A model generated the notes under the pieces. That model was not told the DNA's origin, ran no database searches, and saw only the letters and a program-made list of their open reading frames with translations. The position numbers were made by a program, and so were the translations under genes. This document shows positions 11,970 to 19,775 of a stretch of 64,000 nucleotides of DNA, piece after piece. The first letter of the stretch is position 1, and every line of letters begins with the position of its first letter. Origin of the DNA: Pseudomonadota bacterium (GTDB lineage: Bacteria; Desulfobacterota; Binatia; Binatales; Binataceae); NCBI GenBank assembly GCA_021325355.1, contig JAJPHI010000011.1, forward strand, positions 310,001 to 374,000, read 5' to 3'.

Positions 11970-12791
11970 TCACGCGCCCTGGTCCTCCGGCGGCTCGGAA
12001 TAGAGCAGCAGCAGCTCCTGCCCCAGCGCGCGCACGATGAAGCGCTGCATCTCGCTCACCGTGCGCTCCAGCGCGCGTCCGCCGACAAGCCAATGGCCGC
12101 GACCCCCAAGCCAGCGCACTTCCGCGCCGATCGCGAGAGCAAAACGCGCGACGCGGTCGCGCGGCGCGAAGATATCGGAGTCGCCGGCGATTATCAGTCC
12201 GCTCGGGGCCGCAGCCGCCGGCGGCGAGAGCGTCGCCGGCGCATCACGCGATTCCGCCTGCCGCTCCAGTTCCGCGGCGAAGCCCGCAAAATGACGGGTC
12301 AGGCCGCGAATTATCTGCTCGCGCTGAAACGCTTCGGCGTCCGCGATGAATTCAAACAACGTGCGACCGGTCGGCGGCGCGAGCGGAGTCCCCAGCTTCA
12401 GGGCCAGCCGTCGGCGCCAGCCCGCAATCAAAGGCGAGCGAAAGCCGGGCAGGGCAGGGCCGAGGCCTATCGCGACGGTCGAAAGCTCCGGCGCAAGCTG
12501 TAGCCCCAGCCATCCGCCGTAGCCGTGTCCGACCAGTATCGGATTGCCCTCGCAGGCGCCGAGCGCTTCGCGTACGAGGGCCGTCAGCGCCGCAACTCCA
12601 CAATCCGCGCCAAGAGCCGAATACGGATCGAGCGTGCACACCTCCCATCCGAGGTCGTTCAGATAGCCTGAGAGGAGAGAAAGATGACTAATTGTAGTGA
12701 AGAGTTCGGGCAGAAGGACGATCGGACGGCTGAATTTCCGCGTTGCGGGATGCGCGATCGCGCCCGCCAGACGCCCGCGTCTCAGCTCCAT
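11970..12791 (-). CDS. Alpha/beta-hydrolase-fold protein with altered nucleophile
   Basis: A 273-residue alpha/beta-fold protein. Where hydrolases carry GxSxG, this one reads GHGYGG, with Gly90 at the nucleophile position, confirmed from the codons at this site. An acid (GDSDIF, Asp204/206) and a histidine (GRGHWLVGG, His233) are still in the expected places. It is therefore probably not a serine hydrolase: it could be a binding protein, a pseudo-enzyme, or have a relocated nucleophile. A proline- and alanine-rich insert lies near residues 184-197. It ends 94 bases before the hairpin upstream of guaB. No signal peptide is visible. Confidence 0.78.
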   Translation of the reverse strand: MELRRGRLAGAIAHPATRKFSRPIVLLPELFTTISHLSLLSGYLNDLGWEVCTLDPYSALGADCGVAALTALVREALGACEGNPILVGHGYGGWLGLQLAPELSTVAIGLGPALPGFRSPLIAGWRRRLALKLGTPLAPPTGRTLFEFIADAEAFQREQIIRGLTRHFAGFAAELERQAESRDAPATLSPPAAAAPSGLIIAGDSDIFAPRDRVARFALAIGAEVRWLGGRGHWLVGGRALERTVSEMQRFIVRALGQELLLLYSEPPEDQGA

Positions 12792-12847
12792 CGTTCAGCG
12801 CTGGCAGAGAAATCCGGCGCGGCAAAAAGGTTTTCTGATCGGCGAGA

Positions 12848-12873
12848 AAGGCCCCCTCTGACGAGGGGGCCTT
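12848..12873 (-). terminator. Terminator downstream of the lysine-rich small gene
   Basis: Perfect 11-bp stem AAGGCCCCCTC (12848-12858) with GAGGGGGCCTT (12863-12873) and four-base loop TGAC. It lies about 90 bases past the small gene's stop. The T-run is weak on both strands, so efficiency is uncertain. Confidence 0.6.
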
Positions 12874-12962
12874 CTGTTGACGAGGCCTTGAAGCCCCGGC
12901 TCATTCCAGCAGCTAGCCCGGTAGTACGCCTTCAGCGTCGTCGCGAAGGCGGGGTTAAAAGC

Positions 12963-13067
12963 TTACTTCTTTTTGGTTGGCTTCTTCGGCGCAGCTTTCT
13001 TCTTCATGGTGCTCTTCATTTTGGCTTTGGATACAGCCTTGGTACCGGGCTTCTTCTTAGCTGGCAT
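12963..13067 (-). CDS. Lysine-rich small basic protein (34 residues)
   Basis: The frame from the ATG at 13067 encodes 34 residues: about 15 Lys with Pro, Ala, Ser, Thr and three Met, and no acidic or aromatic residue. The composition resembles a histone-H1-like C-terminal tail (KKPG, AAPKKPTKKK), so nucleic-acid binding is the natural guess, but no folded domain is present and no named family can be claimed. AGGAGGAG lies just before the ATG, a near-consensus sigma70 promoter lies 73 bases upstream and a strong hairpin follows. Together these mark a real, probably abundantly expressed, independent gene. Its closest neighbours are a hydrolase-fold gene downstream and divergent ftsB. Confidence 0.75.
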   Translation of the reverse strand: MPAKKKPGTKAVSKAKMKSTMKKKAAPKKPTKKK

Positions 13068-13139
13068 AACTCTCCTCCTCTTCAGGGTCTATGCTGCTGG
13101 ACGAGCGCACAAAACTGCATCTGACCCATCGATGCGGGA

Positions 13140-13168
13140 ATTATAGAAACGCGTTATGAACAAAGCAA
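13140..13168 (-). promoter_or_regulatory. Sigma70-type promoter of the lysine-rich small gene
   Basis: On the minus strand TTGCTT (13168-13163) and TATAAT (13145-13140) are separated by exactly 17 bases. The -10 box is a perfect match to consensus. Transcription would begin near 13133, giving a leader of about 65 bases. Confidence 0.75.
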
Positions 13169-13300
13169 GAGAATCCACTAAAATTTTCAAAAGTTTTTTC
13201 CTCAGATCAATTTCGTGGCACCCCGATCGCGCTCCGAATTAAAACATAGTTGAGAAGCACGGTCTTGCCTCTCGACGAACCCCCGGCCTAACCTTGTGCC

Positions 13301-13615
13301 ATGCGCGGGTTAAGCCCAGGTGTGCGAGCCCATTGGTTCAATCTAATGCTTGGCGCGATTCTGCTCGCGCTCACGGTCAATTTCCTGATTGGTCGCGAGG
13401 GGATGCGCGACTTCTTGAAGCTCGCCGCCTTCGAACGTAGCCTTAACGCCGAAAATCTGCGCCTGTCCGCCGCCAATGCCGCGCTTCAAACCCAAAGCAA
13501 CCGCCTGCGCAACGACGACGCCTATGTCCAGGCGCTGATTCGCACTGAACTCGGTTACAGCCGCCCGGATGAGATTACGTATCGCTTCAGCTCGGAGACG
13601 CACCCGCGCAACTGA
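13301..13615 (+). CDS. ftsB: FtsB/DivIC-type septum formation initiator
   Basis: A 104-residue bitopic membrane protein. It has a short cytoplasmic N terminus, one membrane segment at about residues 12-31 (WFNLMLGAILLALTVNFLIG), then a periplasmic coiled coil at about residues 40-75 and a C-terminal segment ending LIRTELGYSRPDEITYRF, where ELGY-PDE is the typical FtsB/DivIC signature. In the divisome it would pair with FtsL and FtsQ. The start is an ATG at 13301. The downstream lipoprotein gene overlaps its 3' end by 47 bases, suggesting co-expression. Confidence 0.85.
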   Translation: MRGLSPGVRAHWFNLMLGAILLALTVNFLIGREGMRDFLKLAAFERSLNAENLRLSAANAALQTQSNRLRNDDAYVQALIRTELGYSRPDEITYRFSSETHPRN

Positions 13616-14105
13616 TCTGCGCGCGCGCGAACCGTCCCTCGCTTCCTCCGCTGTCCGCCTGCTCGCCCTGGTCTGCGCCTTTGCCAGTCCCGGATGCCTC
13701 AGCGATCAGATCAAGGAGAATCAGCGGCAACTCGAACAGCAGCAGACCCAGATCAATCAGCTTCAGCAGGAGATTGCGGCTCTGCAGAACGCCCGTGTCT
13801 CGTACAACACCGCGCCGCCGCCCGGCGGATGCGATCAGGGGGTGATGGGCGAGGCGACCCACAAGGGCGCCGAGCGGTTTGCCGCCAATGACCTGACACG
13901 CGCGCTGGCCTACTACCAGGATGCGGCCGACGCCTGTCCGACGAGTCCGCGCGCGCAGGTGAATCTCGCGCACCTGTACGAGGCGATGAATGATAACGCG
14001 CAGGCGCTCGCGCACTATCAGGAGGCCGTCCGCTTGAGCGGCCCTCCCGCCGATCCTGACGCCGTTGCCGAAGCGCGCGCGGCCGTCGCCCGATTACAAA
14101 AGTAG
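13569..14105 (+). CDS. Coiled-coil and TPR lipoprotein, CpoB/YbgF-like layout
   Basis: A 178-residue protein with a basic N terminus, a hydrophobic stretch VRLLALVCAFASPGC that looks like a lipoprotein signal (Cys43, an imperfect lipobox because of Pro), a Gln-rich coiled coil at about residues 46-76, a Pro/Gly linker, and two TPR-like helix pairs at about residues 98-178. The coiled-coil-then-TPR order recalls CpoB/YbgF, which works with Tol-Pal during division, although the protein is shorter. Overlap with ftsB supports a division or envelope role. The true start is uncertain: the 40 residues before Cys43 are long for a signal peptide. Confidence 0.72.
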   Translation: MRLRIASARRRTRATDLRAREPSLASSAVRLLALVCAFASPGCLSDQIKENQRQLEQQQTQINQLQQEIAALQNARVSYNTAPPPGGCDQGVMGEATHKGAERFAANDLTRALAYYQDAADACPTSPRAQVNLAHLYEAMNDNAQALAHYQEAVRLSGPPADPDAVAEARAAVARLQK

Positions 14106-16822: not shown

Positions 16823-17578
16823 CTAACGAAAGAGGTCGGAGGCGGCCGGACGGATCAGCGCCTTGGCGCTGACCCCCTCTGCCGGACGATAGGCGTACCC
16901 GCGCACCAGCACCGCCGGGATAGCGCCCGCCTTGGGCATCAGCAGACCGGCCGCCGCCGCGAGCTCATCGGCGACCGCGATCACCGTATGATGGAGCTCG
17001 CGACCGCCGAGATCGGTGGAGCCGCGCAGATCGAGCAGCGGCTCGAGGCCTGCGATCCCGATACAGACTTCGGTGAGTCCGTCGCGCCACGGCCGCCCGA
17101 ACGTATCGGTGATGAGCACCGCAACGTCGGCGCCGGTCAGCCGCTGCAGCTCGCGGCGCAGCCGCACCGCCGACGCATCGGCATCCTCGGGCAACAGGAT
17201 GGCGCGGTCGTCCGCGAGACTGTTCGACTCGTCAATGCCGGCGTTCGCGCAAACCCATCCCGGTCCGGTTTCGACGATCAGCACCGCGTTGTCCATGCGC
17301 ACGATGCGGCTGGTCTGACGCAACACCAGTTCGACCGCGCGCGGATCCTTGTCCCATCGCGCCGCAAAATTGCGCGCCAGTTCCGACGGCACGATGGTTG
17401 ACAAGTCGATCAGGCGTCCCTCGGCCTTCGAAACGATTTTCTGACAGACCGCGAGGATATCGCCGTCATGGAGCTCGAGGCCCATCGCGGCGACCGCCCG
17501 CGCGATCAGCGCGCCGAGATCATCCCCCGGCTGGATCATCGGGAGGCCTTCGATTGCCGTAAGCGTAAGCGAATTCAT
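16823..17578 (-). CDS. cofE: Coenzyme F420-0:L-glutamate ligase
   Basis: Adds gamma-linked glutamate to F420-0 using GTP. A single CofE domain of about 251 residues, not the FbiB fusion of actinobacteria. Family signatures include GDILAVCQKIVSKAEGR, the VRMDNAVLIVETGPGWVCANAGIDESN region and ITDTFGRPWRDG, which contribute nucleotide and metal binding. The frame begins at a TTG at 17593, but the ATG at 17578 is the more likely start. It lies 45 bases after cofD and 11 bases before a polyprenyl synthase, in a minus-strand run that begins with cofG. Confidence 0.93.
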   Translation of the reverse strand: MNSLTLTAIEGLPMIQPGDDLGALIARAVAAMGLELHDGDILAVCQKIVSKAEGRLIDLSTIVPSELARNFAARWDKDPRAVELVLRQTSRIVRMDNAVLIVETGPGWVCANAGIDESNSLADDRAILLPEDADASAVRLRRELQRLTGADVAVLITDTFGRPWRDGLTEVCIGIAGLEPLLDLRGSTDLGGRELHHTVIAVADELAAAAGLLMPKAGAIPAVLVRGYAYRPAEGVSAKALIRPAASDLFR

Positions 17579-17623
17579 CGCGGTTGCACTCAAGCCTATA
17601 ATGCGAACGCCGGCAACGCCACG

Positions 17624-18571
17624 CTAGGCGTGATTTCCCACTGCCGCGAGCGCCGCCGCCGCCAGTGCCGCGGCCCGCGCCGGGCTGCTCATGATGGTAT
17701 CGGTGGCGACGGCATTGATGCCAAGTCGGCGCACTGCCTCGAGCTGCCGCCGATCAGCTTCATCGAGCACGAAGGCGCCGGCACAGTCGCGGTAGAAATT
17801 CGCCACGCCGCGCGCCGACACTTCATGGCCCATGCCGCGCAGCATCCGGTCGGCCGGACCCTTGACGCTGCGGCCGCCGACGATCGGACTGATTGCAACG
17901 ACGCGATCGCGTACGGCGCGCAGCGCCTCGCGCACGCCGCGAACGCCGAGAATCGGCCCGATCGAGACGAACGGGTTTGATGGCGCGATAATCACCGCGT
18001 CGGCCCCGGCCAGGGCCTCGAGTACCCCGGGCGCCGGTCGCGCCTGTTCGATGCCGCGCAGCTCGATCGCCTCGACGCTGCCGCGCGCGCGGCGCCGCAC
18101 GAAATATTCCTGAAAGGGCAGCGCCGGGCGTCCTTTGAGCTTGACGTGCGTATGCACCCGCTCGTTGCTCATCGGCAGGATGCGGGCTTTGATGCGGAAG
18201 CGCGCCGCGATCTCCGCCGTTACCTCGCTCAGTGCGGCGCCCTCATGCAGACGTTCGCTGCGATAAAGATGAGTCGCGAGGTCGCGATCGCCGAGGTTGA
18301 ACCAGGCCGGTCCATAGAAGCGCTCGAGCTCGCCGAGCGCGCGGAATGATTCCCCGGCCCGCCCCCAACCGTTTTTGCGGTTCACCACGCCCGCGAGTGT
18401 GTAGGTGATGGTGTCCAAATCGGGCGCGACGTGCAGGCCATAGAACTGCTCGTCGTCGCCCGTGTTGACAATTATCGTGATCCGGTGCGGCTCCGCGATC
18501 CGGACGAGGCCCCGCAGAAACTTAGCGGCCCCCACTCCCCCCGCAAGCAAGGCTATCGATCGTTTCGCCAT
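17624..18571 (-). CDS. cofD: 2-phospho-L-lactate (or phosphoenolpyruvyl) transferase CofD
   Basis: Transfers the phospholactyl or PEP-derived moiety from its guanylylated donor to Fo, giving F420-0 or the dehydro form. IALLAGGVGAAKFLRGL at the N terminus, NTGDDEQFYGLHVAPDLDT and the later IIAPSNPFVSIGPIL are the CofD fingerprint. About 315 residues from the ATG at 18571. The start overlaps the 3' end of cofH by 50 bases, so the two are translationally linked. The donor-making enzyme CofC/FbiD is not in this window, so PEP versus phospholactate use cannot be decided here. Confidence 0.94.
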   Translation of the reverse strand: MAKRSIALLAGGVGAAKFLRGLVRIAEPHRITIIVNTGDDEQFYGLHVAPDLDTITYTLAGVVNRKNGWGRAGESFRALGELERFYGPAWFNLGDRDLATHLYRSERLHEGAALSEVTAEIAARFRIKARILPMSNERVHTHVKLKGRPALPFQEYFVRRRARGSVEAIELRGIEQARPAPGVLEALAGADAVIIAPSNPFVSIGPILGVRGVREALRAVRDRVVAISPIVGGRSVKGPADRMLRGMGHEVSARGVANFYRDCAGAFVLDEADRRQLEAVRRLGINAVATDTIMSSPARAAALAAAALAAVGNHA

Positions 18572-19775
18572 TATGGACGATGGGGCGCGCGCCATTAGGA
18601 GCCCTTCTGCCGTAAAGTTTGCGGTACGTGGTGGTGCGCTCAACGGCCCGCCGTCCCATCTCGCGCGCCTTTTCCTCGATCACGTCGACCGGGACAAATT
18701 CGCCCGACGTTCCCCCGGCTTCGGCCGTGATACTTTCCTCCATCAGGGTGCCCGAAAAATCGTTGCATCCCGCCTTGAGCGTTACCGCCGCGCAATCGAC
18801 CCCGAGCTTCACCCACGAGGTCTGGATGTTGTTGATCTGGCCGCGCAGAAACAGGCGCGCGAACGCGTACATCTGCAGGTCGAGCGTACCCAGCGGTGGT
18901 GGCGAGACCAAACCCTTGCGGAACAGCACCGTGTTTTCATGGATGAAGCGCAGCGGCACGAATTCGGTGAAACCGTGGGTTTCCTTCTGGATGCTGCGCA
19001 GCAGGTTCAGATGATTGACGACGTGGCGCGGTTTCTCCAGATGGCCATACATGATGGTCGAGGTGGTCGGCACGCCCAGTGAGTGCGCCGTCGTGATGAT
19101 CTCGACCCAGGTCGCGACATCGACCTTCTTGTGACTCAGGATTTCGCGAATGTCGTCGTCGAGAATCTCGGCCGCGGTGCCCGGGATCGAGCCCAGCCCA
19201 TGATCCCGCAGCATCCCGATATACTCCGGATACGGCATGTTGGTGCGCCGCGATCCGTACATGATCTCCATCGGCGAGAAGGCATGGATATGCAGTTGCG
19301 GGAAATGCCGCTTAATCAGATCCAGGATGTCGCGATATTTGAAAGCCGGCATCTCCGGATTGATGCCGCCCTGGATACACACCTCGGTCGCCCCGCGCGC
19401 GATCGCGTCCGCCATCTTCGCCAGGATCGTCTCGTCCGAATGGTCGTAGGCGTCGGACTCCCATTTCTGCCGTTTGAAGCCGCAGAACTGGCAGCCGACG
19501 AAACAGATGTTGGTGAAGTTCAGGTTGCGATTGACGACGTAGGTCACCTCGTCACCCACGTCCTCGGCGCGCGCCAAATCCGCGCACTTCACCATCGCCC
19601 GCAGATCATCGCCCTGCGCAGTGTAGAGCAGCAAGCCTTCATCGGGAGTCAGCTCCTGACGCTGCAGGCTGCGTTTGAGCGCCGCGCGGACCCCGGCCGA
19701 CGCCCGATCCATGAGATCGCCCAAAGCGGCGGCTTCGACTTCGTTCACGAAGTCGCGCATCTCGTCGAGGTTCAT
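18522..19775 (-). CDS. cofH: Fo synthase subunit 2, radical SAM
   Basis: Together with CofG builds the deazaflavin Fo, CofH joining tyrosine to the 5-amino-6-ribitylaminouracil intermediate. The radical SAM cluster motif is CFVGCQFCGF within NRNLNFTNICFVGCQFC. CIQGGINPEMP and YGSRRTNMPYPEYIGMLRD are typical of the family. About 417 residues from the ATG at 19775, which has GGAGGT upstream. The longer open frame to 19910 runs into cofG and was rejected. Separate cofH and cofG are the archaeal/cyanobacterial style, in contrast to the fused FbiC of actinobacteria. Confidence 0.94.
   Translation of the reverse strand: MNLDEMRDFVNEVEAAALGDLMDRASAGVRAALKRSLQRQELTPDEGLLLYTAQGDDLRAMVKCADLARAEDVGDEVTYVVNRNLNFTNICFVGCQFCGFKRQKWESDAYDHSDETILAKMADAIARGATEVCIQGGINPEMPAFKYRDILDLIKRHFPQLHIHAFSPMEIMYGSRRTNMPYPEYIGMLRDHGLGSIPGTAAEILDDDIREILSHKKVDVATWVEIITTAHSLGVPTTSTIMYGHLEKPRHVVNHLNLLRSIQKETHGFTEFVPLRFIHENTVLFRKGLVSPPPLGTLDLQMYAFARLFLRGQINNIQTSWVKLGVDCAAVTLKAGCNDFSGTLMEESITAEAGGTSGEFVPVDVIEEKAREMGRRAVERTTTYRKLYGRRAPNGARPIVHNGETIDSLACGGSGGR

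Follow-up and report, generated by a model that had tools for sequence, protein, structure and literature searches.

A lysine-rich small-protein gene beside ftsB in uncultured soil bacteria, with an mRNA that appears to be closed by pairing of its ends

Bacterial mRNAs whose two ends pair with each other are known as a few isolated examples. In the hbs (HU) mRNA of Bacillus subtilis, a pairing of 14 nt between 5'-UTR and 3'-UTR protects the transcript from RNase Y (excerpt of PMC7821165, crediting Braun et al. 2017). According to the same excerpt, the icaR mRNA of Staphylococcus aureus is likewise paired from 5'-UTR to 3'-UTR; there the ribosome binding site is masked by a UCCCC motif, and the RNA is cleaved by RNase III. 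That motif is absent in S. epidermidis, and even between species of Staphylococcus most orthologous genes lack a conserved 3'-UTR (excerpt of PMC7821165). Type I toxin mRNAs of the hok/aapA kind carry a small ORF between paired ends, with a sequestered Shine-Dalgarno sequence (SD) and a toxic product (excerpt of PMC6733600). Among proteins, the nearest likeness is the H1-like AlgP of Pseudomonas aeruginosa, of low complexity and rich in lysine (excerpt of PMC9239181).

The unit described here was found in a window of 64,000 nucleotides from a member of the Binataceae. Like hbs mRNA, as described in that excerpt, it encodes a small, basic, histone-like protein and has a 5'-UTR/3'-UTR helix of about 14 nt. 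Unlike hbs, protein and phylum are unrelated, the pairing is seen as covariation across genera, and RNase protection is presumed. Unlike icaR, the helix lies upstream of the SD. Unlike in hok and aapA, the SD is predicted to stay largely accessible and the ORF encodes a lysine-rich product; a peptide with 44% Lys does not fit the toxic hydrophobic type of hok/aapA. The likeness to AlgP extends to forms of 110–112 aa in one further family (f6), whereas the protein of the window has 34 aa and no profile match, and the likeness is one of composition. As judged from sequence comparison, the gene is genuine, codes for protein and is conserved, and the two ends of its mRNA form a covarying clamp. 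Neither mRNAs with paired ends nor H1-like proteins are new as kinds; what is unusual is the depth of conservation and the combination of the two. A search of one open-access library with simple terms, of which the UTR terms may miss printed forms, found no description of a clamped lysine-gene unit.

The candidate unit is on the minus strand, and a protein search finds the gene once in the source genome. The promoter (13140..13168, minus strand) consists of TTGCTT, a spacer of 17 nt and TATAAT. The original prediction had called it a near-perfect sigma70 promoter; this is borne out by the exact –10 box and the spacer, but is overstated because the –35 box matches TTGACA at only 3 of 6 positions, and a promoter scan requiring at least 4/6 per hexamer does not list it. 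All 36 family loci examined have a –35 box that opens with TTG and a spacer of 17 nt. The –10 box is TATAAT at 33 of these loci and TATAGT, TATATT and TAGGAT at one each, the three odd forms having been added to the search pattern by hand. Upstream of the –35 box lies an A+T-rich stretch (13180..13199, minus strand), possibly UP-element-like; A+T-richness, often TTTATAAATTT, occupies the same position in many relatives. The spacer ahead of the –10 box (ATAAC..GTTTC) is shared by many family members and has no second copy in the genome, a conservation that exceeds the requirement of a plain sigma-70 promoter; the pattern TTG(N)n-ATAAC-GTTTCTATAAT, with at most 3 mismatches, has a single occurrence in the source genome.

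The leader is about 66 nt long (13068..13133, minus strand) if transcription starts 7 nt past the –10 box, which agrees with the 65 bases predicted, and measures 62–86 nt across the 35 loci listed. The predicted SD, AGGAGGAG, is present ahead of the ATG (13072..13079, minus strand); its presence in relatives is not an independent count, because the SD served as a selection condition for most family ORFs picked. Two hairpins are carried by the trailer on the same strand. Hairpin B (12928..12950; GCCTTC...GAAGGC) has a counterpart partly in the consensus fold (columns 253–255 with 272–275). Hairpin C (12881..12898; CGGGGC...GCCTCG) is placed by that fold immediately after the leader-trailer helix (columns 316–320 with 336–340). 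The unit ends in a terminator-like hairpin (12844..12873, minus strand). Its 11-bp stem (12848–12873) is present as predicted and the consensus fold also holds a hairpin at this position, but the T tract is weak (TTTCTC) and a terminator scan gives no minus-strand listing of the hairpin. The divergent neighbour is ftsB (13301..13615, plus strand; PF04977 DivIC, Pfam 6.9e-13). Downstream, and outside the unit, stands an alpha/beta hydrolase gene (11970..12791, minus strand; PF12697), which does not adjoin the lysine gene in every relative. Coenzyme F420 genes are also near the unit (cofE and cofD homologues, PF01996 and PF01933, at 16823–18643 of the window).

The ORF, MPAKKKPGTKAVSKAKMKSTMKKKAAPKKPTKKK (12963..13067, minus strand), has 34 codons, with 15 Lys (44%) and no Asp or Glu, much as predicted (about 45% Lys, no acidic residue). 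Some relatives have one acidic residue in the protein, and in most members lysine runs stand just ahead of the stop. Across 35 sequences pN/pS is 0.31 in frame versus 1.15 and 1.22 when the two alternative frames are read; differences at codon positions 1, 2 and 3 number 3789, 4795 and 8289 of 17,254 each. By these comparisons the frame is protein-coding, conserved and under purifying selection. Frame conservation was the check that the original prediction had proposed, and conservation, synteny and codon evolution all back its central claim of a self-contained gene that encodes a small lysine-rich protein.

The product has no relatives among named families in the searches made. In Pfam 0 families matched 26 family members; in NCBIfam one member reached a repeat model at the chance level of E 0.084 and nothing else matched; in the PDB there were 0 matches. 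Three proteins of families f6 and f9 gave 0 matches in Pfam and NCBIfam. The conservation of promoter and SD, together with the lysine content, suggests an abundant polyanion-binding protein. We infer that it is disordered and resembles a histone H1 tail, with DNA the most likely ligand and RNA or polyphosphate as alternatives. The predicted H1-like, nucleoid role thus lacks a profile link to any named histone-like family, but gains some weight because the f6 protein at the same place is 110–112 aa long and made of K-A-P-rich repeats. AlgP, too, has K-A-P repeats.

The lysine gene is present in 39 of the 41 genomes of the family, as found by profiles and by inspection beside FtsB. A first profile, read at E ≤ 0.1, detected it in 31 of 148 class genomes, each of them a member of the window's family. 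With a wider profile G020 and G029 are also recovered, as are, at weaker scores, G024 (E 0.017), G011 (0.05) and G022 (0.75); these three weak-scoring genes adjoin FtsB and match the trailer model. Inspection beside FtsB adds G014, G016 and G027, with ORFs of 21–25 aa. The gene was not found in the family genomes G034 and G006 (53% complete). FtsB, located by tblastn, is beside the lysine ORF at 35 of 36 family loci, one locus per genome; the exception, L037 (G058), is a locus whose sequence starts 407 bases ahead of the ORF. In G022 (L081) the lysine frame stops early and the remaining lysine-rich coding continues in another frame, with leader and trailer intact, which looks like a frameshift in the assembly. 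BLAST missed a genome of the same genus (G001) and most of the family, so that profiles were needed; weak BLAST hits (L007–L011) were dropped as unrelated frames. The trailer model R1 has matches in 38 of 148 class genomes, 35 of them in the family. Its matches outside the family (G085, G093, G118) are weak, E 3e-4 to 6e-3, and were left uncounted, as were weak opposite-strand matches in G007, G021 and G033. The match in G085 occurs on both strands, as expected of a terminator hairpin.

The original prediction missed a covarying leader-trailer helix. On comparative evidence, the leader pairs with the 3' trailer in a helix that would close the mRNA around the ORF. Its 5' strand is GCTCGTCCAGCAGC (13093..13106, minus strand), supported by covariation and by a strand bias of G-U pairs; its 3' strand is GCTGCTGGAATGAGC (12899..12913, minus strand), supported by covariation and by the consensus fold. 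In a transcript alignment of six relatives, conserved complementary blocks stand in leader and trailer. Unconstrained RNAalifold on 33 rows pairs the leader with the trailer (columns 52–56 with 311–315 and 60–63 with 303–306). In the same 33-row alignment (A6) 91.4% of 396 helix cells are paired, versus 85.3% in shuffles and 22–56% when the strands are slid. Pairs changed on both sides number 7 versus 3.0 in shuffles (2/500 as high), and cells changed on both sides 29 versus 8.9 (0/500 as high). The covariation score is 0.312 versus 0.209 (0/500 as high). Further pair types show no excess over shuffles (272/500). The structure so scored had itself been derived from this alignment. Genome G029, whose contig ends in the trailer, was left out of all helix counts, G020 and G022 also out of A6, and G022 out of the codon test.

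Trailers were also permuted among 14 genera (35 sequences), after hand correction of the trailer anchors of G024, G011 and G022. Matched leaders and trailers have a mean duplex energy of –29.2, permuted ones of –22.4 (sd 0.93, strongest –26.7), and 0 of 20,000 permutations reach the observed value. The six anchored pairs are formed in 192 of 210 cases, versus 30–47% when slid. Compensatory changes include GCCUAUC/GAUAGGC in genus 4, CUCAG/CUGAG in genus 9 and, within the genus of the window, AGCAGC/GCUGCU versus GGCGGC/GCCGCC. Non-Watson-Crick helix cells comprise 38 G-U, 11 A-C and 23 others; counted by pair and genus, G-U outnumbers A-C by 22 to 7, an excess expected if the sense RNA pairs. 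When whole transcripts are folded, the mean helix probability exceeds 0.5 in 31 of 35 and is below 0.5 in G001, G018, G024 and G011. In genera g14 and g16 yet other sequence is paired (P 0.91–1.00 at three loci), and in G027 the leader-trailer pairing is palindromic.

Raw duplex energy was rejected as evidence for the helix. Strong duplexes are common in G+C-rich flanks. For 71 control ORFs, taken from the window at a minimum of 200 aa and with spurious overlapping frames among them, the mean is –26.6 (sd 4.6, best –40.7), and 13 of the 71 reach the family mean of –30.7; the unit of the window has –33.8. When the trailers of 7 further loci were shuffled 20 times each, the real duplex was stronger than every shuffle at only 3 of them, and at L098 it was weaker than the shuffled mean.

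End pairing seems to recur in two more families of the class, f6 and f9, where leader and trailer are complementary in a sequence different from that of the window's family. Among the FtsB loci of 17 other class genomes, a lysine-rich ORF is present in the five of f6 and f9; at the other 12, composition filters found no lysine-rich ORF within 1.5 kb. In f6 an FtsB match was obtained in 11 of 14 genomes, all 11 with a lysine ORF, and in f9 a lysine ORF is present in 5 of 7 genomes. ORF lengths at the FtsB position range over 21–112 aa, the longest being those of f6. By eye, CUCGCCUGAGA or a close variant stands in the leader and its complement in the trailer at 10 of 11 f6 loci, with G104 as the exception, and at 5 of 5 f9 loci. 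An A-U pair replaces a G-C pair in G045; the helix sequence is otherwise nearly invariant, so covariation is thin in these two families. Ensemble folding of the coding strand gives P > 0.6 at 12 of 15 f6/f9 loci, with the opposite strand often high too; low values are those of L098 (0.17), L133 (0.02) and L123 (0.00). Leaders of f6 and f9 (e.g. L088, L124, L133) bear GGUGG/UGUGG repeats upstream of the helix strand. These repeats are absent from the family of the window and are possibly a protein site or a G-quadruplex. Outside f1, f6 and f9, an ORF that we take to be enolase-like is found beside FtsB at the position of the lysine gene (e.g. L083, L085, L101), which hints at rearrangement there.

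The helix would leave room for translation. Its 5' strand starts 33–42 nt upstream of the AUG and ends ahead of the SD; the window holding the 3' strand starts 42–64 nt after the stop, or 99 in the broken G022. In the source genome 13 nt separate the end of the 5' strand from the SD, and a ribosome could thus initiate without opening the helix. Over 35 folded transcripts the SD is unpaired at a mean of 0.53 with the trailer and 0.47 without it; for the source unit the values are 0.64 and 0.47, and SD-trailer pairing is 0.00. These predicted openness figures fit mRNA protection better than a translational lock. We consider that the gene, about as probably as otherwise, encodes a mini-protein that resembles histone H1 and binds polyanions, and that a 5'-3' clamp stabilises its mRNA as in hbs. 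A single-gene transcription unit would yield the small polycationic protein. Helix, adjacent hairpins and terminator would shield the mRNA ends from RNases, and the ribosome-binding site would stay usable, giving a long-lived, well-translated transcript.

An unlikely alternative is that the full-length mRNA is silenced by its 5'-3' pairing and becomes active only after 3' trimming or a signal, as in hok and aapA mRNAs, with which the unit shares a small ORF between paired ends (excerpt of PMC6733600). SD-trailer pairing reaches at least 0.3 in 16 of 35 transcripts and in 11 of 35 the presence of the trailer lowers SD openness, so such a lock may operate in part of the family. Mean SD openness is, however, not lower with the trailer, and control by SD sequestration is not favoured as the main mechanism; moreover, the unit keeps a single fixed place beside ftsB, and the product is lysine-rich rather than hydrophobic.

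It is rather improbable that a structured RNA regulates other genes here with the ORF as its second function, in the manner of RNAIII of S. aureus, which likewise has 5'-3' UTR pairing (excerpt of PMC7821165). Conserved hairpins beside the helix would suit such an RNA, but from one family to another the pairing persists although leader and trailer share no recognisable sequence, a poor fit to a seed for trans targets. Rfam 15, searched with window positions 12000–14000 and 11 loci, also gave only matches far below gathering scores, and an identity as 6S or another Rfam RNA is unsupported. So is identity as tmRNA, which is a separate gene on contig C11. The Rfam 6S model found nothing in the 95%-complete source genome (G000), where tmRNA is present, and also missed 9 of 14 control genomes.

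Lysine runs close to the stop in most members would suit an arrest peptide that stalls the ribosome and controls something downstream, but the ORF is followed by a terminator-like hairpin, relatives differ in the gene downstream, and the length at the same place varies from 21 to 112 aa, which makes this reading very improbable. Although inverted repeats do flank a small ORF, it is equally doubtful that these repeats act at the DNA level, as protein sites or as the ends of a mobile element, given the sense-strand bias of the G-U cells and a single copy at one conserved place.

The mRNA, then, appears closed by end pairing, and this is kept across related uncultured soil bacteria. Compensatory changes preserve the pairing across 14 genera of one family, and two other families apparently have it as well, which makes it a good comparative case for selected mRNA closure; in the clamp reading the gene so closed is histone-like, as hbs is. 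The candidate phylum gains a conserved small basic protein that has no family profile. A bolder and unlikely extension is a structured RNA class of the Binatota that is both mRNA and regulated ribonucleoprotein, in which the peptide governs how long its mRNA lasts, perhaps by attaching to the clamp. If true, closure of the mRNA would provide feedback on the dose of a chromatin-like or polyphosphate-organising protein, and would have arisen independently of the arrangement in the B. subtilis HU mRNA.
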